A stretch of 24,510 nt of DNA from a virus. Shown piece after piece: positions 6,313 through 20,602 of this stretch. The stretch is taken from IMG/VR virus record IMGVR_UViG_3300025828_003399, positions 1-24,510 of that record; one strand, 5' to 3'. The position numbers and the translations under genes were made by a program. The notes beneath the pieces were generated by a model. It was given only the letters and a program-made list of their open reading frames with translations, was not told the origin of the DNA and ran no database searches. The number at the start of each line of letters is the position of its first letter. Positions within the stretch are counted from its first letter, which is position 1.

Positions 6313-7290
6313 ATGAAATTTCTTATTACTGGTATTACAGGCTTTGCTGGACCACACTTAGCTAATCTTCTTATTGAAAATGGTCACGAAGTTTTTGGTT
6401 TAGTTAGACACTCAAATGGACGAGAAACTGATATCTTAGATGTTGTACCAGACGAACATTTTAAGCAAATTAAATTTGTTTATGGGGATCTTCGTAATTA
6501 CCTTTCTATTTCAAAAGTTTTTGAAGCAAATAAATTTGACGGGGTATTTCATTTAGCTGCTCAATCTCACCCTCCTACAAGTTTTGTTAACCCTATTGGT
6601 ACTATGGAAGAGAACGTTATGGGGTCAGCAAATCTTATTCAAGCTATTGAACTTCATAACCCTGAAGCAAAGTTAATGTTTTGTAGTACATCAGAAGTAT
6701 ACGGTAACGTTGGAAGAGATGGTAGAAAGATTCAAACAACAGATCAACTCCTTCCAGCTAACCCGTATGGTGCTAGCAAAGTAGCAACCGATCTTTACTT
6801 ACAAGAGAGATTTGAGAACAAAGCTATCCGAGGTTTTATTACAAGGGCCTTTTCACATACTGGACCTAGAAGAGGTAAAACGTTCTCCATATCATCCGAT
6901 GCATATCAAATTGCTCGTATGATGAAAGGTTACCAAGACAAAACCTTACTTGTTGGTAATCTTGAAACTATTAGAGTTGTGATTGATGTAAGAGATTGTG
7001 TAAATGCATATTATCTCCTTATGTTAGCTGACGGTTCAGATGGTCAGGTGTATAATGTATGTGGTGAAGAACCTCATAAGATGGGTTATTATACAGATCT
7101 TCTTATTAAGTACTCCGGTCTCGATAATGTTGAAAAGAAAATCTACGATAAGTTCTATCGTCCTATTGATATTGATTACCAGCACGGTGATAGTGAATCT
7201 ATTACAGAACTTACGGGCTGGGCTCCAAAATATAACTTAGACCAAACTATGGAAGACTTACTTCAGTATTGGGTTAACAAAATTGCATAA
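6313..7290 (+). CDS. gmd: GDP-mannose 4,6-dehydratase-like extended SDR
   Basis: This is a 325-residue extended short-chain dehydrogenase. GITGFAG at 7-13 is the NAD(P)-binding GxxGxxG. STSEVYG at 125-131 supplies T126 and E128, and YGASK at 152-156 supplies Y152 and K156. This T-x-E ... Y-x3-K set matches the catalytic residues of GDP-mannose 4,6-dehydratase, and HTGPRRGKTFSISS resembles the GMD substrate loop. The expected product is GDP-4-keto-6-deoxymannose, precursor of GDP-fucose, GDP-rhamnose or GDP-perosamine. It is shorter than E. coli Gmd and the TGFAG loop also resembles the related reductase Rmd, so a reductase or another NDP-sugar dehydratase remains possible. Its G+C (18 of 60 at 6421-6480) is well above the block before it. 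It could feed the fucosyltransferase-like genes at 13200 and 14009. Confidence 0.85.
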   Translation: MKFLITGITGFAGPHLANLLIENGHEVFGLVRHSNGRETDILDVVPDEHFKQIKFVYGDLRNYLSISKVFEANKFDGVFHLAAQSHPPTSFVNPIGTMEENVMGSANLIQAIELHNPEAKLMFCSTSEVYGNVGRDGRKIQTTDQLLPANPYGASKVATDLYLQERFENKAIRGFITRAFSHTGPRRGKTFSISSDAYQIARMMKGYQDKTLLVGNLETIRVVIDVRDCVNAYYLLMLADGSDGQVYNVCGEEPHKMGYYTDLLIKYSGLDNVEKKIYDKFYRPIDIDYQHGDSESITELTGWAPKYNLDQTMEDLLQYWVNKIA

Positions 7291-7293
7291 ATA
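7286..7293 (+). promoter_or_regulatory. T4-type late promoter box CATAAATA
   Basis: This matches NATAAATA, the late-promoter core of T4-like phages (TATAAATA in T4). It has no evident -35 and ends 5 bases before the ATG at 7299. It lies in the palindrome GCATA-AATA-TATGC (7285-7298). Transcription starting 5-7 bases downstream would give an essentially leaderless mRNA. Confidence 0.5.
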
Positions 7294-7298
7294 TATGC

Positions 7299-7742
7299 AT
7301 GAGCCTTTTTAATGATAAGATTAATGAAATCTTAGAAAAGACTGATTTAGATGCTAATGAACTTCGTCCTGGCGATCTTTGTTTAAACACAAACAAAGAA
7401 TGTGACCATTATGGTAGTAAAGGTAAAGTACTAAAAGTCTTTAAATTAAAAGAACCAAATAATACAATTGGTAAATTTATACGTTATAAAGTATTAAACG
7501 ATGGACCCACTTACAAAAAAGGTGATGTTTTAGATAAGACTGAAATTCAGCTTAAAAAAGTTAATGAAAATTATGCTGACGGTAAAGTTAAAGGTAAAAG
7601 CAGACCCGGAAGAGTTAAAAGATCAGGTGCAAGTTGTAAAGGTTCAGTTACTTCATTAAGAGCAAAAGCTAAAAAAGCTGGTGGTGAAAAAGGTAAGATG
7701 TACCATTGGTGTGCTAATATGAAGGGTGGTAAGAAGAAATGA
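7299..7742 (+). CDS. Basic phage protein: SH3-like domain plus conserved Cys/Lys-rich tail
   Basis: This 147-residue protein has no named function that I can assign. Residues 22-90 (RPGDLCLN ... GSKGKVLKVFKL ... KGDVLDKTEIQL) look like an SH3/KOW-type beta barrel. From residue 100 a highly basic tail (KSRPGRVKRSGASCKGSV, then RAKAKKAGGEKGKMYHWCANMKGG) carries C113 and C138. I recall similar tails at the ends of other marine phage proteins, and they may bind nucleic acid or metal. The N-terminus (MSLFNDKINEILEK) resembles a short capsid-targeting peptide with an I-L-E site. The gene follows a late-type promoter box and overlaps the SOD gene by 4 bases, which suggests late expression with virion genes. 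Confidence 0.6.
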   Translation: MSLFNDKINEILEKTDLDANELRPGDLCLNTNKECDHYGSKGKVLKVFKLKEPNNTIGKFIRYKVLNDGPTYKKGDVLDKTEIQLKKVNENYADGKVKGKSRPGRVKRSGASCKGSVTSLRAKAKKAGGEKGKMYHWCANMKGGKKK

Positions 7743-8374
7743 GTTACGAGTCTAAAGTATATCAATTATTAGAAGCTAATACTGCAAAATACTATGCTGA
7801 AAAACTTTCCTATGGATTAAAAGACTTAGCTCCAGTAATTAATAGACAAACGATGAACTTTCATTATAATGTTCATTATAAAGGTTACATCAAAAAATTA
7901 AACGAAGCTTTAGGTAATAAACCAAAACCACCTATTGTTGAGTTAATTAAAAATATTAAAAAATACGATGATAAAGTTAGAGACAATGCTGGTGGTTACT
8001 ACAATCACTCACTCTTCTGGAAATACATGCATCCAGGAGGGGCTCCATTTGAAGGTAAATCCGAACTCGGTAAAGCAATTAAAAGCACTTTCGGTTCCTT
8101 CAATAACTTTAGGAACGAGTTCGTTGAATCTGGCAAGTCCCAGTTTGGATCAGGGTGGGTATGGTTGGTTAAAAAAGATAATAGGTTGGAAGTAGTACAT
8201 ACACCTAATCAAGATAACCCTCTTATGAGTAATGCTGGTAAACCTATATTAGGTTGCGATGTATGGGAACATGCTTATTATCTTATGAATGGTCCAGAAA
8301 GAGGAGAATGGATTAATAACTTCTTTAAGATTGTTCATTGGAATCATTGTAATACTATTTTTATCAGTGATTAA
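7739..8374 (+). CDS. sodA: Superoxide dismutase, Fe/Mn family (Mn-type signature)
   Basis: This 211-residue Fe/Mn SOD has all four metal ligands: H42 (NFHYNVHY), H90 (GGYYNHSLFW), D174 and H178 (DVWEHAYYL). Mn-type indicators are the GG before YYNH and the Gln in NQDNPLM (Q158), which supplies the active-site Gln in Mn enzymes; GSGWVWL at 137-143 is also conserved. The enzyme disproportionates superoxide to H2O2 and O2. The protein starts about 16 residues before the usual SOD N-terminus, and that extension (MSYESKVYQLLEANTA) contains L-L-E followed by A, like a phage prohead-protease site. It is coupled by ATGA to the upstream late-type gene. The SOD call is very secure; metal choice is inferred from residues. 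Virion packaging is a hypothesis. Confidence 0.95.
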   Translation: MSYESKVYQLLEANTAKYYAEKLSYGLKDLAPVINRQTMNFHYNVHYKGYIKKLNEALGNKPKPPIVELIKNIKKYDDKVRDNAGGYYNHSLFWKYMHPGGAPFEGKSELGKAIKSTFGSFNNFRNEFVESGKSQFGSGWVWLVKKDNRLEVVHTPNQDNPLMSNAGKPILGCDVWEHAYYLMNGPERGEWINNFFKIVHWNHCNTIFISD

Positions 8375-8388: not shown

Positions 8389-9414
8389 GTGGATAAGGAA
8401 TCACACATATTATTTGAAAAATATCAATCTGTTAATGAAGCTAATGGTATAGTACCTTATAATAAAAAAGAGGTAGAAAAAAGAAATAAACTTCAAAAGA
8501 GAGAAGATAAAGATGATGATTATAACACTTATTCTAGATCTTTTTCAAGTGATGATACTCCAGAAAATGTACCTCCGGACCCAAGTGTAAATTATACATA
8601 TGCCGGTCCTGAATCAGGAGAAAAATTCGCAGGTAGAGGTACAGGTGAAAATCCGGAAAGAAAAAAATTACCTCAAGGTCAACAAAGTCTAAAACCACAA
8701 CCAGCACCACAACCAAAACCTAACACTCAATCTCAATCAGCACCAGCCCTAGCACCACAACCAAAACCTAACATTCAATCTCAATCAGCACCAGCCCCGG
8801 CACCTAACGTTAACCAACCATCAACTTTTAAAAATTTCATAAAAGGAGGTAAAAAGGGATTAAAAGGTTTAGGTAAAGCATTAACAATGGGGGCTAAAGC
8901 TGTAGACCCATTTAGTAAACAAGGTTTATTAGGAAAAGCTGCTACTGCAGCTAAAAATATAGAAAATTGGGCTAAAACAGGATCGGGATTTGTAGATAAT
9001 ATATACGGTAAAAAGCAAGGTTCAGCTGATGATGCGGTAAAAAAGGGAAATGAACATGAGTTTTTTACTAATATAAGAAATACTTTTAAAAACAATAATA
9101 AAACTAAAGCAGCATACGCAGATGCTGTTGCAAATTCAGTTATCCCACCCGGTCAACAACTATCTTTAATACACCCTAAAAATCCAAACAAACCTAAACA
9201 ATATACCAATATAGAACACTATGCTAATGTAGTTTTAGATCAATTTAAATACTATTTAGTGAACAAAAACTATAGTGAAAACGATTCAGGTAAATACACA
9301 GTACAAGCATTTACAACAAGAACAAATACTGATAATAATAAAAATAAAATCATGCTGAAAATTTTAAAAAAACATGGTTTATTGTATGACGCTGTAGCTA
9401 AATTTGTACCTTGA
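8389..9414 (+). CDS. Pro/Gln-rich probable virion or internal head protein
   Basis: GTG at 8389 is used as the start because it sits 5 bases after a late-type box and gives an N-terminus (ILFEKYQSVNEANG) like other phage virion proteins. The 341-residue product has a charged, probably disordered region (20-95). It continues with a Pro/Gln/Ser-rich linker containing two 16-residue repeats (APQPKPN-T/I-QSQSAPA) encoded by a 48-base tandem duplication. A Gly/Lys-rich helical part follows (FKNFIKGGKKGLKGLGKALTMG) and then a more ordered C-terminal domain (about 225-341, HEFFTNIRNTF to the end). No enzymatic motif is seen. The linker and leader suggest a structural or internal protein. There is no Shine-Dalgarno. 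The gene is clearly coding; the role is inferred. Confidence 0.6.
   Translation: MDKESHILFEKYQSVNEANGIVPYNKKEVEKRNKLQKREDKDDDYNTYSRSFSSDDTPENVPPDPSVNYTYAGPESGEKFAGRGTGENPERKKLPQGQQSLKPQPAPQPKPNTQSQSAPALAPQPKPNIQSQSAPAPAPNVNQPSTFKNFIKGGKKGLKGLGKALTMGAKAVDPFSKQGLLGKAATAAKNIENWAKTGSGFVDNIYGKKQGSADDAVKKGNEHEFFTNIRNTFKNNNKTKAAYADAVANSVIPPGQQLSLIHPKNPNKPKQYTNIEHYANVVLDQFKYYLVNKNYSENDSGKYTVQAFTTRTNTDNNKNKIMLKILKKHGLLYDAVAKFVP
8703..8798 (+). repeat. 48-bp tandem duplication, two copies
   Basis: Copies at 8703-8750 and 8751-8798 differ at two bases and encode APQPKPNTQSQSAPAL and APQPKPNIQSQSAPAP. The unit is in frame inside the Pro/Gln-rich linker, consistent with recent expansion of a flexible linker. 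Confidence 0.9.
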
Positions 9415-12178: not shown

Positions 12179-12397
12179 ATGACCAAAGTTAAAGCAGGTA
12201 AAATTATCAGAGTAGATAACAAAGAAAGAAAATTTGGTGCTAATCCCGAATATCTTGCTATTTGGGTAGAAAATCAATCTAATGACGAATTTTGTCTTTT
12301 GTTTACTGAAAGAGAATTAAAAGTTGCAAAGGATAGAGCAGATAAAAACAAAGAAGATATACCAAGAAAAGGTTTCTTTACTGATTTGTTTGACTGA
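12179..12397 (+). CDS. Small conserved-looking phage protein of unknown function
   Basis: The 72-residue product has a beta-rich first half (VKAGKIIRVDNKERKFG, then YLAIWVENQSNDEFCLLFTE) and a charged helical second half (RELKVAKDRADKNKED). It has no signal peptide and no known motif. It is probably genuine: it has a promoter-like sequence upstream and its stop overlaps the start of the next gene (TGATG). It is the first gene of the second glycan operon. I cannot assign a function. Confidence 0.6.
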   Translation: MTKVKAGKIIRVDNKERKFGANPEYLAIWVENQSNDEFCLLFTERELKVAKDRADKNKEDIPRKGFFTDLFD

Positions 12398-13200
12398 TGA
12401 CTAACTTAAATGCATCTGTAATTGTTTTCTATCGTAAAGATAGTGAAGATAGAGAGTTAAATTTAAAAACTCTTTTAAACTTTTACTACAAACATTACGA
12501 AAATTTTGAGTTTATAGTTTCTGAACAAAAACATTTAGAAAGTAATATAGACTTCTCTTCTTATGAAAACCTTAAACATATAGTTCTTCCTGATCTGGAA
12601 GATACATGGAATAAAATGAAAGGTTATAATGAAGGGGTTAAAGATTCATTTTATGAAAATCTTATCTTTAATGATGTAGATGTAATTTTTGGGCCTGATC
12701 ATATAAATGAAACTTTAGATATTTTAACAAAAGATAATAAAAAAATTATTTTACCTAACGACGGTCATTTTGTTTGTGTAAAAGAAGGTATAAGAGACAA
12801 ATTTATTGATAATTTAGATTATGGTTATCTTTGTGATCAAATCGACCCTAATCATTACAATCAAATTAATTTTCAAAACGATAAAATTCATATAGGTCAT
12901 ACAAGTACACCAGGAGGTGGGTTTGTTACTAAGAAAAGAAATATTTTTAACTGTAATGGTTTTAACCCTAACTTCTTAGGTTGGGGATATGAGGATAACG
13001 AAACTTTAGCACGTTTTAATAAAATGGGTTATACGGTATGTAGACTTACGGGAGACTTTAAGCCTCTGTTTCATATTAATCATGAGAGTGCTGAAAGAGA
13101 AACTAACCCATATTATAAGCAAAACAACAATTTATGTAACTTTGTAGAAAAGATAGATAGTAAACTGCTTTATCTATATAGCAACACTTGGAAAATGTAA
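12397..13200 (+). CDS. GT-A glycosyltransferase, galactosyltransferase (GT7C-like) type
   Basis: The 267-residue single-domain enzyme starts with a strand-rich donor-binding core (ASVIVFYRKDSEDRELNLKT) and has the metal-binding DxD as D93-V-D95 (FNDVDVIF). The C-terminal block TPGGGFVTKKRNIFNCNGFN, then GWGYEDNE with E199 and D200, matches the GT7 C-terminal motif (GGxxx ... NGFxxxFxGWGxEDxD) of beta-4-galactosyltransferases and bacterial polymerases of the chondroitin type. The closing H-x-N-H segment (FHINHESAE) could hold a metal-binding His. No membrane segment is present. It is paralogous to the gene at 14791. Overlapping starts on both sides indicate translational coupling. Donor sugar is unknown; UDP-Gal, UDP-GalNAc or UDP-Glc are possibilities from family knowledge. 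Confidence 0.8.
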   Translation: MTNLNASVIVFYRKDSEDRELNLKTLLNFYYKHYENFEFIVSEQKHLESNIDFSSYENLKHIVLPDLEDTWNKMKGYNEGVKDSFYENLIFNDVDVIFGPDHINETLDILTKDNKKIILPNDGHFVCVKEGIRDKFIDNLDYGYLCDQIDPNHYNQINFQNDKIHIGHTSTPGGGFVTKKRNIFNCNGFNPNFLGWGYEDNETLARFNKMGYTVCRLTGDFKPLFHINHESAERETNPYYKQNNNLCNFVEKIDSKLLYLYSNTWKM

Positions 13201-14012
13201 TGAAGGTTAATATTAGAGATAGAAATTTTGGTCATGATATATCATCTTGCGCTAATACCCCAAGCAAATACATCGAGTGGGTTAGAGACAACGTCCCTGT
13301 TAGTGATGTATGTTTTATTACTGATATGTGTCTTGAAGACGTAAAGAAAGCTTCTGGTGTAAAAAGAAAGGTAGCTTGGATATTAGAACCAAGAAGCATT
13401 CATCCTCATTCATATGCATGGATTGAAAAAAATAACAAACTGTTTGACTTTGTATTAACCTTTGATCAAAATCTTATTGATAGAGGTGAAAATTATCTTT
13501 ACTACCCTCATGGTAGATGTTGGATTAAAAATTATGTAGATAAACCTAAAACAAAGATGTGTAGTATCTTTGCTTCAGAAAAAGCAATGACTGAAGGTCA
13601 CCGTTTACGTCATCAAGTAATTGATTATAACGGTGAACAAATGGATTGTTTTGGTGAATATGTTCTTAATAGACTTGAGAATAAAGAGGACGGTCTTAAT
13701 GATTATAGATACTCAGTTACAATTGAAAATGCTATCTTACCAGGTTATTGGACTGAAAAATTATTAGATTGTTTTGCTACAAAAACCATACCTATCTACT
13801 ATGGTGATAAAGATTCAGTAAATAAATTTTTCAACAAAAATGGTATCATTTATTTTAACTCATTAAATGATATTGATCTTGTTCTTAGTAATATGTCAGA
13901 AGATGATTACAATATGCGTCTTTCTGCTGTTGAAGAAAATTATAGCAAGGTGGAACAGTTTAGAGTACCAGAAGATTGGATATTCGAAAATTATAAATTT
14001 TTATTTGAATGA
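13200..14012 (+). CDS. GT10-type (alpha-1,3/4-fucosyltransferase-like) glycosyltransferase
   Basis: ATG 13200 (TAATG overlap) is preferred to the in-frame ATG at 13188, which lies within the upstream gene's last codons. The 270-residue protein carries the GT10 donor motif: YRYSVTIENAILPGYWTEKL (169-188), with E176-N177 and Y183-W184-T185-E186-K187, then CFATKTIPIYYG (191-202). These correspond to the FxxxxENs ... dYxTEK ... ga-xPxxxG signature of fucosyltransferases using GDP-fucose. The N-terminal acceptor domain is divergent (KVAWILEPRSIHP). It fits with the GMD-like enzyme at 6313, although no GDP-fucose synthase lies in this window. There is no membrane anchor. GT10 assignment is strong; fucose as donor is probable. 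Confidence 0.85.
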   Translation: MKVNIRDRNFGHDISSCANTPSKYIEWVRDNVPVSDVCFITDMCLEDVKKASGVKRKVAWILEPRSIHPHSYAWIEKNNKLFDFVLTFDQNLIDRGENYLYYPHGRCWIKNYVDKPKTKMCSIFASEKAMTEGHRLRHQVIDYNGEQMDCFGEYVLNRLENKEDGLNDYRYSVTIENAILPGYWTEKLLDCFATKTIPIYYGDKDSVNKFFNKNGIIYFNSLNDIDLVLSNMSEDDYNMRLSAVEENYSKVEQFRVPEDWIFENYKFLFE

Positions 14013-14794
14013 AAACTATTTTATTAAAAGGAGGTTTGGGTAATCAGCTTTATCAAATAGCTGCAATTAATTCTTATTGTAAAGATAATGATGAAGAGTT
14101 CTTTATTGATTATAGTGCAAGATTTGGGTGCGGTCAAGGCAAGCATCCTGTAATGTATAAAGATAATTTTTATAAGAATTTCAATACCGGTAAAATTGAA
14201 AAAGATTTTAAACTTTTACAAGAACCACAATTTACATACAACGAAATAGAAAAAACAGATGAAAACATTGTTTACGAAGGTTATTATCAGTCTCCCAAAT
14301 ACTTTGCAAAGTATAGAGATGAGCTTAATGATTGGTTTTGTTTTGATGAAGAAAAATATTCTCCTATAGAAAATAAAATTAATCAATTAAGAGAAAAAAC
14401 AGGTAAAAAGGTTGTTGGTGTGCATGTTAGAAGAGGTGACTATACTCACAACCCTGACATCCACCCCGCTATTCCTAAAAGCTTTTATGATAAAGCTAAA
14501 AACATGTTTAAAGATCATGTATTCATTTATGCTACAGATGATTTTGCTACTGTATCAAAAGAGTTTAAGTTTGATGAAAATAATATCTATGTAAACGGTG
14601 AAAGTGAATTAGAAGATTTCTATACTTTAAGTTGCTGTGATTCAATTATAATGGGTAATAGTACTTTTGCTGCTTGGTCAAGTTATCTTGGTAAAAAGAA
14701 AGAAAAGGTAATTGCTCCGGTACCTTGGTTTGGACCGAAAGGACCAGAATATAAAGATTTACTAGATGATAATTGGACTATTATAAAAACATGA
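14009..14794 (+). CDS. GT11-type (alpha-1,2-fucosyltransferase-like) glycosyltransferase
   Basis: The 261-residue protein opens with KGGLGNQLYQIA (7-18), the GT11 N-terminal motif GGLGNQMFQYA. Its central HVRRGDY at 139-145 is the GDP-fucose-binding HxRRxDY. Toward the C-terminus, CCDSIIMGNSTFAAWSSYLG is the third conserved GT11 block. Together these three motifs are diagnostic. The reaction is transfer of L-fucose from GDP-fucose in alpha-1,2 linkage. It overlaps both neighbours by 4 bases (ATGA). A GT10 and GT11 side by side point to a doubly fucosylated or related 6-deoxyhexose-bearing glycan. It is slightly short for bacterial GT11 enzymes of about 280-300 residues but seems complete. Confidence 0.9.
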   Translation: MKTILLKGGLGNQLYQIAAINSYCKDNDEEFFIDYSARFGCGQGKHPVMYKDNFYKNFNTGKIEKDFKLLQEPQFTYNEIEKTDENIVYEGYYQSPKYFAKYRDELNDWFCFDEEKYSPIENKINQLREKTGKKVVGVHVRRGDYTHNPDIHPAIPKSFYDKAKNMFKDHVFIYATDDFATVSKEFKFDENNIYVNGESELEDFYTLSCCDSIIMGNSTFAAWSSYLGKKKEKVIAPVPWFGPKGPEYKDLLDDNWTIIKT

Positions 14795-15600
14795 TATCAA
14801 TTAAATCTACATTCTGTATTTTTTATCAAAAAGATCATGATGATAGAGAACGTAATTTAAATATTCTACTTCATTATCTTTTAAAAAATTATACTGATTT
14901 AGAAATTATAGTACTTCAGCAATATATAGATAAAGAGCAAAGAGATAATCTTAAACCTTTACCTATCTTCAGTAATGAAAATATATTTCATCATAGATTA
15001 TTAGAAGATACTGAGTATTGGAATAAAATGACAGCATATAACTTTGGGTTAAAATATGCTTCATATGATACTATTTTCTTTAATGACGTTGATACTATTT
15101 TTAATCCTCAAGATATAGTTAAAGCTTACGATCTTATTAATAACGAAAATAAAATTCTTATTCCTTCTGGTCCTAATTTTATTGATGTAAAGGTACCATT
15201 AATAGATAAGTTTAAAGAAACTTTAGACTATAATACCTTTTTGAAAGAGTATCAAAATTTTCACGTTTATGAAAATGATCTTTTCAGACGTAATAACATG
15301 GGTGGCCCTGGTGGTGGGCTAGCTGGTAATAAAAACACATTTATTTCAATGAATGGATTTAACCCTAAATTCAAAGGTTGGGGTTTTGAAGATGATGAAA
15401 CCCGTGAAAGATTTGCTAAGTTTGGTAACCCGGTAAAATTTATCGATGATGGTCATCCTATCTTTCATATGGTACATGAAGGAGCAAAAAGAGGCACCGC
15501 AATGTGTAAATACATGGAAACAAATAGACAAGTTTTAGAAGAAATGAGAGCCATGTCTTATGAACAAATAAAGGAGTATAGTTTTTCATGGAAACTGTAA
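14791..15600 (+). CDS. GT-A glycosyltransferase, GT7C-like, paralogue of the gene at 12397
   Basis: ATG 14791 (ATGA overlap) is chosen over a TTG at 14773. The 269-residue product aligns by eye with the 12397 product along its length: FCIFYQKDHDDRERNLN at the N-terminus, D99-V-D101 in FFNDVDTIF, GGPGGGLAGNKNTFISMNGF, and GWGFEDDE with E200 and D201. The final FHMVHEGAKR parallels FHINHESAER in the paralogue. It is likely a metal-dependent galactosyltransferase-type enzyme with a related but distinct donor or acceptor. Duplication within one operon suggests two similar linkages in the glycan. Confidence 0.8.
   Translation: MISIKSTFCIFYQKDHDDRERNLNILLHYLLKNYTDLEIIVLQQYIDKEQRDNLKPLPIFSNENIFHHRLLEDTEYWNKMTAYNFGLKYASYDTIFFNDVDTIFNPQDIVKAYDLINNENKILIPSGPNFIDVKVPLIDKFKETLDYNTFLKEYQNFHVYENDLFRRNNMGGPGGGLAGNKNTFISMNGFNPKFKGWGFEDDETRERFAKFGNPVKFIDDGHPIFHMVHEGAKRGTAMCKYMETNRQVLEEMRAMSYEQIKEYSFSWKL
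15571..15576 (+). promoter_or_regulatory. Shine-Dalgarno-like AAGGAG
   Basis: AAGGAG lies 11 bases before the ATG at 15588, inside the end of the upstream gene. It is one of very few good Shine-Dalgarno matches here and supports 15588 as the start. Confidence 0.4.
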
Positions 15601-16280
15601 TCATATTACAACCAGCTGGTATAGGTGATATTTTTTATTGTTTAAAAATAGTTTACTATATATCATTTTACGACAGTAATATTAAAACAATCGAATGGCC
15701 TGTAGTAGATGAATTTTCCTATATTAAAGATTATGTAAAAATTCCAAAACTTAAATTTACTTCATTTAACGATTTTGAAGACCGAGATGATAATAAGCAA
15801 ATTTTAAATTTAAGAGATGCTGATGTAGGTAAACCGCAATACCTTAACAATACAATGCAAGCTAAGTATGATTTAGCAAATATAGATTCTAGTGATGCAT
15901 TAGATTATTTTGATTTTTTTAGAAATTATGAAAGAGAAGAAAAATTATACAACGAATTAAATCCTAATAATGAGGAATATATTTTAAGAAGTTGTAATGT
16001 AGGTTCCCCTCCTAATTTTTCACCAAGACATATTAATATTGAAACTAATAAAAAAATTATCGATGTAAAAGTATTACCTAACTATAACTTATTTGATTGG
16101 TGTAAGGTATTAGAAAATGCATCCGAAATTTATATGGTTGATACTTCGTTTATGTATTTGATGGAAAAACTTGACCTTAAAGCATCCAAATTTAAATTAT
16201 ATAGTAGGTTTAATCCTGCTAACTTTAATGTAATTAAACATATTCCTAAAAATGTAAAATGGGAATTAACTGAATGGTAA
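15588..16280 (+). CDS. Small GT9-like glycosyltransferase
   Basis: The 230-residue protein begins with IILQPAGIGDIFYCLK (5-20), the GT9 donor loop GxGD, and has a later MVDTSFMYLMEKL with D185-T186-S187, a degenerate form of the GT9 DxSG/xxH nucleotide-sugar motif. In contrast to the gene at 5462, the usual Gly and His after D-T/S are missing, and the protein is about 100 residues shorter than typical members. It may therefore be an altered, accessory or inactive GT-B protein. It overlaps the upstream gene by 13 bases, with an AAGGAG in reach, and is followed by one intergenic base. Fold assignment is moderate; activity is uncertain. Confidence 0.6.
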   Translation: METVIILQPAGIGDIFYCLKIVYYISFYDSNIKTIEWPVVDEFSYIKDYVKIPKLKFTSFNDFEDRDDNKQILNLRDADVGKPQYLNNTMQAKYDLANIDSSDALDYFDFFRNYEREEKLYNELNPNNEEYILRSCNVGSPPNFSPRHINIETNKKIIDVKVLPNYNLFDWCKVLENASEIYMVDTSFMYLMEKLDLKASKFKLYSRFNPANFNVIKHIPKNVKWELTEW

Positions 16281-16281
16281 A

Positions 16282-16917
16282 ATGGGTAATTTAAGAATTT
16301 TTAATTTAAATGAACTAACACAACTTAATAAAGCTTCTGTGTTTATTGAAACCGGTACTTTATATGGAGATGGAATTGTTCAAGCATTAAGATATGACTT
16401 TGATAGAATTATATCCATAGAAATAGAACCAACGGTAGCAGAAAAAGCTAGACATAGATTTAGGAATGAATCTAGAGTAGAAATAATTACCGGTCATTCA
16501 ACTTCTGTATTAGAGGAAATTTTACCTACTATTGATAGTAATATTTTATTTTGGTTAGATGCACATTTTCCTGGTGCAGATGCTGAATTGAAATCATATG
16601 ATGAAATTAAAAAATTAGATTTTAATTTAAATTTACCTTTAGAAGATGAAATTAATTTAATATCAAAAAGGTTAGGTAAGTATAAAGATGTTTTGATTTG
16701 TGATGACTTATGGGTTTATGAATCATTAAAGGATGGAGGAGACAAAAAGAGACCTTCGTTTGATGAGCATTGTAAAGCTCACGGTCATAACATAACTTTA
16801 GATGATATTAACCCTGATGGAAAAGATCTTTCAATGTTATATGAAACTTTTGGCAAGACCCACGACTTTAGAAAGGTCTATAGAGATCAAGGATATGTAA
16901 TAGTATACCCATTATGA
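16282..16917 (+). CDS. Class I SAM-dependent methyltransferase in the glycan operon
   Basis: The 211-residue protein has a Rossmann methyltransferase core: motif I is FIETGTLYGDG (21-31), the acidic strand-2 end is IISIEIEP (43-50), and ITGHSTSVLEEI (69-80) and ILFWLDAHFPG (88-98), with D93 and H95, follow. The LDAHFPG element is shared with methyltransferases found in LPS and O-antigen clusters. The likely role is O- or N-methylation of a sugar in the glycan assembled by its neighbours. It lies between glycosyltransferase genes, with a 1-base gap before and a 4-base overlap after. There is no signal peptide. Fold is well supported; the acceptor is inferred from context. Confidence 0.75.
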   Translation: MGNLRIFNLNELTQLNKASVFIETGTLYGDGIVQALRYDFDRIISIEIEPTVAEKARHRFRNESRVEIITGHSTSVLEEILPTIDSNILFWLDAHFPGADAELKSYDEIKKLDFNLNLPLEDEINLISKRLGKYKDVLICDDLWVYESLKDGGDKKRPSFDEHCKAHGHNITLDDINPDGKDLSMLYETFGKTHDFRKVYRDQGYVIVYPL

Positions 16918-17717
16918 TAGTACATAACAATTTAGATAAAAATTATTGGGAAGATCCTTTAAGATATTGGGATTTTGAACAATATAAAGATTTGGTTTCT
17001 GATGATATTCATGTTTACATTGGATGTGATTGGGACGCAATGAAAAATTCAAATGTAAGTGGTAAAAAGATTTGCTGTCATTTTGAAGAGGTATATGATG
17101 ATCTTGATGGTACGGAAACTCTTATAGCTCCATATTGTGATGAAATGCTCACTATTAGTAAAACAGCTGCTGAAAAGAAACCTAATAGAAAATATGTTTA
17201 CTTTCCTTTGAACGAAAAATATTTACCAGAAAAGATTTTAGCTCCATCAGAAAAAATTTATGATGCCTGTTATACTGGTAATCACAATAATACACCCCCG
17301 GTACCTGAAATCTTCAACACTTTAGGAGGTATGAGTTACGGTAAGTATGTGTTAGCTTCTTTTTCTAGAGGTACACATACTAATGTTACATATAAACAAA
17401 AATTGCAGTTGATAAGCGAGTCCAAGGTAACCGTAACTCATAACTCCACCCGAGCTTATGCTCAGTTAAAGAGTAGATCATTTGAAGCAGCATTTAATAA
17501 GAGTTTAATATTATGTTGCGAAAAATTTAGTAACTATATGGAACCTTGGTTTGTAAAGGGTGAACATTTTGTTACTTTTGAGGAAGGTAAATTAAAAGAA
17601 CGTTTAGACGAAATTTTAAACAACTATGAGTCTTATCATGATATGGTAGAAAAGACTTATGATTTAGCTATTAATAACTATACAGTTAAAAACTTTATTC
17701 TAGATTTTATATGTTAA
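16914..17717 (+). CDS. CgeB/group 1-type glycosyltransferase
   Basis: The 267-residue protein has a divergent N-terminal half and a C-terminal half typical of the Glyco_trans_1_2 (CgeB-like) domain. LKSRSFEAAFNKSLILCCE (185-203), including E191 after the R-x-F turn, is followed by WFVKGEHFVTFEEGKLKERL and a terminal helix with YDLAINNYTVKNF. The pattern R-x-FE-x(5)-G/K-x4 ... f-x2-GE-x-v-x-f corresponds to the donor-binding end of GT-B enzymes. It is shorter than most GT4 enzymes, so the acceptor half is compact. Its 4-base overlap upstream and 7-base overlap downstream place it firmly in the operon. Substrates are unknown. Confidence 0.7.
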   Translation: MIVHNNLDKNYWEDPLRYWDFEQYKDLVSDDIHVYIGCDWDAMKNSNVSGKKICCHFEEVYDDLDGTETLIAPYCDEMLTISKTAAEKKPNRKYVYFPLNEKYLPEKILAPSEKIYDACYTGNHNNTPPVPEIFNTLGGMSYGKYVLASFSRGTHTNVTYKQKLQLISESKVTVTHNSTRAYAQLKSRSFEAAFNKSLILCCEKFSNYMEPWFVKGEHFVTFEEGKLKERLDEILNNYESYHDMVEKTYDLAINNYTVKNFILDFIC

Positions 17718-18652
17718 GCATTGTAACAACAACTATTAACGAGCCTACTGAAGCAACTAAAAGGTATGCTAAATTAGCTCTCAATAATGATTGGACTTTT
17801 TATGTAGTAGGAGACACTAAAACACCTCATAAGCTTTACGAGGATATGGCTGGTGTTACTTACCTTCACCCAGACTATCAGGAAAAGAAATATAAAGAAC
17901 TAAGCGATAGTATTGGATGGAGATCTATTCAGAGGAGAAATATTGGTTTTGTTGAAGCTTATAAAGAAAGCAATAATAAAGTTATTGCTACTATTGATGA
18001 TGATAATATACCATATGATGATTGGGGATCCGATATAAAGGTCAACACAAAAGTAAACGTTAACCATTATAGAGGTAACACTTATGTTTTTGATCCTATT
18101 TCACCTACTTCTTATCATGATAAAATTTGGCATAGAGGTTTCCCTTTAGATTATGTACCTGAAAGAAAGAAAGCTATTTTACTTCAAGATAAAGAAGTAG
18201 AGGTTAAAGTACAAGCTGATTTTTGGAATGGAGATCCTGATATTGACGCAATGGCAAGACTAACAGTAAAGCCTTATTGCGATTTTAATTCTGAAAAAGG
18301 ATTGTTCCCTTTTACTAGCGAAAATATTCACCCTTTCAATTCTCAAAATACATTTTTATCTAGAGATGTTATACCTCATTATGCTGTTTGGCCTCATGTA
18401 GGTAGAATGGATGATATTTGGGGTGGGTATTACCTTCAAACCAAAATAAAACCTAATCAAGTTATATTTGATAAAGCATCAGTTTATCAAAATAGGAATG
18501 AGCAAGATTTAATTACTAATTTAGAAAAAGAAATTATAGGTTATAGAAATACTTTATCGTGGGTGTTAAATTGTTGCACTCTTAATAGTGATTTAATACC
18601 AGATGAAACTAAAAAATTCTTAGACATTTATTTTAATGAATTTAGTAAATGA
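17711..18652 (+). CDS. STELLO/DUF288-like glycosyltransferase
   Basis: The 313-residue protein starts SIVTTTINEPTEATKRYAKL (3-22) and has VVGDTKTPHKLYE, VTYLHPDYQ, IQRRNIGFVEAYK and the acidic D96-D97-D98-N99 (ATIDDDNIP). This order (TTIN-pT, VGDxkTP, YL, Q, RRNIG, DDDN) is the signature of the DUF288/STELLO GT-A family, where DDDN is the presumed metal/nucleotide-sugar site. Family members occur in plants, nematodes and scattered bacteria and phages; their reactions are poorly defined. The C-terminal half (WPHVGRMDDIWGGYYLQ) is likely the acceptor-side motif. It is the last glycan gene, overlapping pyrophosphatase by 17 bases. Confidence 0.72.
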   Translation: MLSIVTTTINEPTEATKRYAKLALNNDWTFYVVGDTKTPHKLYEDMAGVTYLHPDYQEKKYKELSDSIGWRSIQRRNIGFVEAYKESNNKVIATIDDDNIPYDDWGSDIKVNTKVNVNHYRGNTYVFDPISPTSYHDKIWHRGFPLDYVPERKKAILLQDKEVEVKVQADFWNGDPDIDAMARLTVKPYCDFNSEKGLFPFTSENIHPFNSQNTFLSRDVIPHYAVWPHVGRMDDIWGGYYLQTKIKPNQVIFDKASVYQNRNEQDLITNLEKEIIGYRNTLSWVLNCCTLNSDLIPDETKKFLDIYFNEFSK

Positions 18653-20191: not shown

Positions 20192-20602
20192 ATGTCTCAG
20201 GCAGAAAAAAGTATTGACTTATTAGCTCCTAAAAAGAGTTTAATTGACTTATCAGACCCCACTCAAGGATTTGATTCAACCTTGATGGGGTATTCCCTTT
20301 CTACATTGATGGAAGATGTTATCCTTGTTCGTTATGTTGACTCTAACGAAGACGGTACAGCTATCCTTCGTAACGGTATTATGATTCCAATTAACGCTGA
20401 TACTAAAGCATGGCGTATTGGAGAAGTATTACTTAAAGGTACTAAATGTGAATATGTTAATGTTGGTGACCATGTTATGTTTCCAAACAATCTTGGCATT
20501 CCTATTAATAACATCGACGTAGACGGTATTGGTAAGGTAAAGAAAGGGTTGTTCTTAAACGAAGCTAGAATTTTCGGCATTGTAAAGCCTAATGAAGGTT
20601 AG
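20192..20602 (+). CDS. 31: GroES/gp31-like head-assembly co-chaperonin
   Basis: The 136-residue protein has a GroES-type barrel: LMEDVILVRYVD (37-48), a loop with the ILRNGIMIP hydrophobic tripeptide that would contact GroEL (58-66), AWRIGEVLLKG, and YVNVGDHVMFPNNLGIPI. T4 gp31 replaces host GroES to fold the major capsid protein gp23 inside GroEL. This protein adds about 35 residues at the N-terminus relative to GroES (MSQAEKSIDLLAPKK ...), which may be specific to the phage version. The start codon is preceded by ATAAGT at 6 bases, the same arrangement seen before the gene at 10471. It overlaps the next gene by 11 bases. The co-chaperonin call is strong; equivalence to gp31 is inferred. Confidence 0.85.
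   Translation: MSQAEKSIDLLAPKKSLIDLSDPTQGFDSTLMGYSLSTLMEDVILVRYVDSNEDGTAILRNGIMIPINADTKAWRIGEVLLKGTKCEYVNVGDHVMFPNNLGIPINNIDVDGIGKVKKGLFLNEARIFGIVKPNEG

Follow-up and report, generated by a model that had tools for sequence, protein, structure and literature searches.

A T4-type phage represented by IMG/VR record IMGVR_UViG_3300025828_003399 encodes a superoxide dismutase (SOD) that is probably made late in infection and carried in the phage head as an internal protein, with a leader resembling the capsid-targeting sequences (CTS) of T4. By its conserved residues, the SOD is a catalytically intact Mn-type enzyme, and its first 12 residues form a predicted leader that would be removed after E12. 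The stretch analysed here, referred to as the window, comprises positions 1 to 24,510 of that record (24,510 nt). The T4 packaging mechanism, phage-encoded SODs and a virion Cu/Zn SOD in chloroviruses are already known, and what would be new is the SOD as cargo; in the open-access literature we found no description of a bacterial virus that packages an SOD. It has been proposed by T4 researchers that the CTS allows T4-like phages to load various proteins into the head (PMC9026906), and the documented natural CTS cargo comprises, as far as we found, a few defence proteins together with Alt. The SOD leader, together with similar leaders on many unrelated proteins of the lineage, suggests that metabolic enzymes travel in the particles of environmental T4-type phages. 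The leader signature also offers a prediction of virion cargo from sequence alone, and the question is raised whether superoxide has to be removed during the first minutes of infection or in the free particle.

The enzyme and its N-terminal extension

The Fe/Mn-SOD family is defined by PF00081, PF02777 and four metal ligands, all of which are present in the window SOD. Pfam matches cover residues 18–97 (Sod_Fe_N, E = 3e-18) and 108–205 (Sod_Fe_C, E = 4e-34), and H42, H90, D174 and H178, named as ligands in the preliminary description, align with the metal ligands of SODs. H46, Y50, W142, Q158 (of NQD) and E177 are also kept. The window SOD contains the AGG...NQD pattern, which we take to be that of Mn-type enzymes; this pattern and the two Pfam domains bear out the earlier assignment as an Mn-type SOD, the metal type being assigned from family knowledge. 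In fold, metal ligands and Mn-type residues, the enzyme resembles bacterial MnSOD (SodA), to which it is up to 47% identical, and the best cellular SODs found are 40–47% identical. It differs from SodA in possessing an N-terminal extension and in being more basic. The pI is 9.1 for the whole protein and 9.2 for the predicted mature form, and mature values of 9.1–9.4 in all six SODs of the clade compare with 6.0–8.7 in five other SODs.

Since alignments of PDB SODs start only at residue 14 to 28 of the window SOD, mostly at 16–23, residues 1–16 constitute an extension. Between codons 1 and 39 there is no in-frame ATG, GTG or TTG, and the extension is therefore translated and is not the result of a misplaced start. 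As had been claimed, it is absent from usual SODs: neither PDB SODs nor the nearest cellular SODs (40–47% identity) contain it. Host SODs with the same extension, which would have spoken against packaging, were sought in these two sets and none was found. A search of genome contigs with a profile of the clade alignment gave no SOD matches, and the P0001 search of genome contigs gave two cellular SODs, both without the extension.

Within the extension, L10-L11-E12↓A13 (the arrow marks the predicted cut) obeys the rule L/I-X-E of the prohead protease gp21 (PMC9026906), and the reported likeness of L-L-E followed by A to T4 processing sites thus holds. In T4 IPIII, whose N-terminus in NC_000866 is MKTYQEFIAEASVV (MKTYQEFIAE↓A), targeting depends chiefly on residues 4 and 7 and processing on residues 8 and 10, under the same rule (PMC9026906). 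The SOD leaders agree in type with these published determinants, which are hydrophobic/aromatic residues, I/L at P3 and E at P1. From published T4 data, a change of this E to D would be expected to stop cleavage and leave targeting intact. The aromatic residues of the window leader lie at Y3 and Y8, unlike the T4 IPIII spacing (P7/P4), and match the targeting positions loosely. The [IL]xE motif is short and prone to occur by chance, and it gains meaning from the comparative evidence, and from that only.

Table 1. Features of the window and related loci. Positions refer to the window unless a locus is named; arrows mark predicted cuts.
Feature	Location	Strand	Basis or N-terminal sequence
T4-type late promoter motif CATAAATA	7286..7293	+	13 nt before the start codon of gene 7299
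Small basic protein, 147 aa, pI 9.8, first gene of the cluster	7299..7742	+	CTS-like start MSLFNDKINEILEKTD
Mn-type Fe/Mn superoxide dismutase, 211 aa, ATG start	7739..8374	+	Pfam, PDB homology, ligands and second-sphere residues
SOD leader, codons 1–12, predicted capsid-targeting peptide cut after E12	7739..7774	+	MSYESKVYQLLE↓ANTAKYY; clade comparison, profile
Predicted mature SOD start, A13	7775	+	Predicted cut after E12
Basic protein, 341 aa, pI 9.6, after SOD	8389..9414	+	Leader MDKESHILFEKYQSVNE↓AN
SOD leader, L003 (and L002)			MNYEYKIQRILE↓ANTAKYY
SOD leader, L016			MNYEYKIQELLE↓ANTSKYY
SOD leader, L005			MNFEKYADLIVE↓ANTAKYY
SOD leader, L015			MSFEKYADLILE↓ANTSKYY
GGAAGHM-family protein, about 420–450 aa	L013:16665-17978		CTS-like leader VVNE↓GG
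NMNAT/cytidylyltransferase-like proteins	L007:6063-6692, L013:14770-15390, L018:11734-12348, L183:3556-4176		Leaders such as MKTFKQFFLGE, MLTFKDYFLKE
Retropepsin-like (Zn_protease/Asp protease) proteins	L007:10086-10535, L183:7112-7561		Leaders ending YIVQE, FIVNE or YFLNE
Very basic small proteins, pI about 10	L018:14302-14571, L018:13530-13832		CTS-like starts

Leaders of related SODs

Relatives of the window SOD in IMG/VR are few. Full leaders were compared for the window, L003 (and L002), L005, L015 and L016, the SODs of L004 and L006 being truncated; these sequences are mutually related as well as few and are not independent counts. Five distinct leaders occur in the clade, and [IL]xE↓A at residues 10–13 is kept throughout. 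E4, [IL]10 and E12 are found in every leader, and E12-A13-N14-T15 is invariant. Mean pairwise identity is 39% over residues 2–11, 93% over E12–Y19 and 77% over the body (13–211), and free variation stops at the predicted cut. The spacing of the T4 targeting residues is matched by YADLIVE of L005 and YADLILE of L015, the leaders of which are 80% identical.

This pattern bears on whether the leader could be another functional module, for example a helix, serving oligomerization or docking, by which the SOD is positioned on the capsid or tail and which stays uncut. A helix is predicted at residues 3–22, a weak indication taken from AlphaFold2 models of the six clade SODs that are of unusable quality (pLDDT 44, and about 33 in this region). 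Against such a role, residues 2–11 are wholly replaceable while E12-A13 is kept (the L015 and L016 SODs are 93% identical in their bodies and 20% in their leaders), and unrelated proteins bear leaders of the same kind, which together make an uncut docking helix quite improbable. The type of leader also tracks the type of upstream gene, which is of the KRSG-domain type in the window, L005 and L015 and short in L003 and L016, as would be seen if leaders varied by recombination with that gene and were neutral baggage. Neutrality is nevertheless hardly credible given that E4, [IL]10 and E12 are kept in all leaders and that the leaders resemble those of unrelated genes.

Gene cluster and late promoter

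The first gene of the cluster, 7299, encodes a product ending in RVKRSGASCKGSV...MYHWCANMKGGKKK, with a leader akin to MNTFNNKIEKLLEAHP of L018:13817. Its own cleavage site is weak, because its score with the leader profile described below (p = 0.015) sits at an alternative E. The stop codon of 7299 overlaps the SOD start in an ATGA at 7739–7742, as it does in L005, L015 and L016, whereas L002 and L003 have a gap in place of the overlap. The product of gene 8389, downstream of the SOD, has P/Q-rich and Gly/Lys-rich stretches, and counterparts with MDK..(L/I)FE.Y leaders follow the SOD in L002–L005, L015 and L016. Relatives of gene 8389 were sought in IMG/VR and none was found, and searches of phage records with gene 7299 and L007:3404 gave no match for either. 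In contig G034, the portal of which is 80% identical, both neighbours of the SOD adjoin without it (L183:17401 and 17734), so that the SOD counts as optional within the cluster. L015:8534-9529, next to the SOD cluster, is a prepilin-type (type II/IV pseudopilin-like) gene that may have been acquired from the host; its weak matches include a Verrucomicrobia-associated family.

The motif NATAAATA serves T4 and cyanophage S-PM2 as late promoter (PMC2984593), and it lies upstream of the 7299 orthologue in all six other loci checked. Over 415 gene starts of the clade, 49 promoter motifs fall 8–17 nt upstream, compared with 0–5 in each other 10-nt bin, and the distance to the start is 13–14 nt in 39 of 52 cases. 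With a late-type promoter upstream of the cluster and its own start codon overlapping the end of 7299, the SOD has the appearance of a late gene; at the level of sequence, the coupling to a late-type gene given in the preliminary description is thereby upheld. NATAAATA stands 13–14 nt ahead of many late and virion gene starts across the lineage, and also before gene 23261 of the window; at this distance the 5′ leaders of late mRNAs would be nearly absent. TATAAATA is otherwise depleted here, with 1 occurrence in the window against 8.2 expected.

The late promoter also has to be weighed against a reading of the SOD as an ordinary auxiliary metabolic gene, in which the enzyme keeps the infected host alive during lytic growth and the extension has nothing to do with packaging. 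Metabolic genes are numerous in the window, and the SODs of PA5oct-like jumbo phages and Vibrio phage 2.275.O are surrounded by metabolic and stress genes and lack a comparable [IL]xE↓A leader before the SOD domain. We consider this reading unlikely, since a late-type promoter, CTS-like leaders on both flanking genes and a fixed E↓A are not expected of a purely cytosolic enzyme. The SODs of the Pseudomonas PA5oct/MIJ3 group and of Vibrio phage 2.275.O share the Fe/Mn-SOD family with the window SOD but are shorter, are 24–29% identical to it, have another gene context and show no such leader directly before the SOD domain. Several SODs in records labelled as phage (including L113) were not used as phage SODs, since they look bacterial by context or identity. 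Among the SOD-containing GenBank 'phage' records OR84xxxx/OR85xxxx and MW462191, several look like bacterial DNA, MW462191 containing a beta-lactamase and regulators, and counts of phage SODs are inflated as a result.

Head machinery of the lineage

Processing of the SOD by the T4 route would require a gp21-type prohead protease. A T4-type portal (phrog_213, E = 5e-106) is encoded in the clade, and a T4-type tail sheath stabiliser (gp3) is present in the lineage. In sister phages with portals 61–63% identical, gp21 (PF03420, E ~1e-32) and gp23 (PF07068, E ~1e-92) are encoded beside the portal. The gp23 proteins of these phages contain LRE↓ANVAGG, FNE↓ANVAGG or VNE↓AGP sites, and genes of their head/core cluster begin MKTFKQYFLES (of the MKTFKQYFLE↓S type), MITFKDYFLIER. 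Both gp21 and gp23 also occur in phages at 52% DNA-polymerase identity. They were sought in the SOD-clade contigs via the portal, the DNA polymerase and one additional marker, and neither was found, which counts against the packaging reading and is its main gap. Because these contigs are fragments, although together they cover much of the genome, and because gp21 does not follow the portal of the SOD clade, its gp21 and gp23 probably lie elsewhere or have diverged.

Leaders of this kind on other proteins

CTS-like leaders occur on unrelated proteins in contigs of the lineage (Table 1), and their motifs are commoner at N-termini than at internal positions. Relatives of the GGAAGHM-family protein, which has no Pfam match, are found in 72 IMG/VR contigs, and in nearly all of them the shared part starts directly after an E. 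The KLDG stretch of this family recalls nucleotidyltransferases or ligases. The NMNAT/cytidylyltransferase-like enzymes are possible further packaged enzymes, and the very basic small proteins of L018 are candidate internal DNA-associated proteins. Other small basic proteins of the lineage begin MNFKQFYE↓A or MNTFNNKIEKLLE↓A.

A leader profile built without SODs was scored against 3065 internal control windows, giving a moderate p of 0.0088 for the window SOD, 0.0007 for that of L016 and 0.019 for that of L015. The training leaders were hand-picked, and profile scores of the trained proteins are therefore not evidence; this applies to the leader of gene 8389, which outscores all 3065 control windows but belonged to the training set. 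Motif enrichment was assessed by a training-free test with one vote per protein family and 2000 samples. The strict motif with T4 spacing was observed 11.6 times at N-termini against 5.7 expected, a value reached in three of the 2000 samples, and [ILV]xE[AGS] 16.6 times against 10.6 (20 of 2000). Enrichment was weak for the most permissive motif, [IL]xE[AGSN] (75 of 2000), and four control motifs showed none in the same N-terminal test. These figures are for the larger, family-collapsed set; a smaller contig set had given stronger numbers.

Proposed route and comparison with known systems

The capsid-targeting role suggested for the extension in the preliminary description gains support from the fixed [IL]xE↓A under a diverging leader, the leaders of the neighbouring genes, the late promoter and the T4-type lineage. 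In the route that we propose for a head-internal SOD, the gene would be transcribed late from the promoter ahead of 7299, and the 12-residue leader would bind the prohead core, as the CTS of T4 internal proteins does, and bring the SOD in. The prohead protease would then cleave after E12, and the basic SOD would remain with the packaged DNA. The later steps are less sure: the SOD may be ejected with the DNA and clear superoxide in the host before phage gene expression, or it may shield the packaged genome outside the cell. Ejection is feasible, given that foreign enzymes have been brought into heads, and from there into cells, by T4 leaders (PMC9026906), and we give it somewhat under an even chance. 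A wider proposal is equally tentative, namely that the SOD is one of a set of virion-delivered, protease-freed and early-acting enzymes of the lineage (NMNAT-like, retropepsin-like and GGAAGHM-family) with interchangeable leaders.

The closest parallels are T4 IPI, IPII, IPIII and Alt, in which a leader of about ten residues ending in [IL]xE↓A is borne by diverse basic cargo. Late expression (here by sequence) and a T4-type portal are further points of likeness, with gp21 and gp23 here in sister phages. The present case differs from the T4 proteins in that the cargo is an SOD, the leader has 12 residues with another aromatic spacing, and packaging and cutting are predicted. The Cu/Zn SOD of chlorovirus PBCV-1 (A245R) is expressed late and packaged in the virion (PMC7019647). 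It is likewise a late viral SOD in the particle, as predicted here, but it has an unrelated Cu/Zn fold, belongs to a eukaryotic algal virus and has no T4-type leader described.

Other genes of the window

Elsewhere in the window, a glycine cleavage H protein (GCV_H, E = 3e-38), here in a phage, is encoded at 652–1011 and a GroES-like protein (phrog_3188, E = 2e-4) at 20192–20602. The genes at 12397–18652 form a run that, by reading alone, resembles glycosyltransferases and sugar and methyl transferases.
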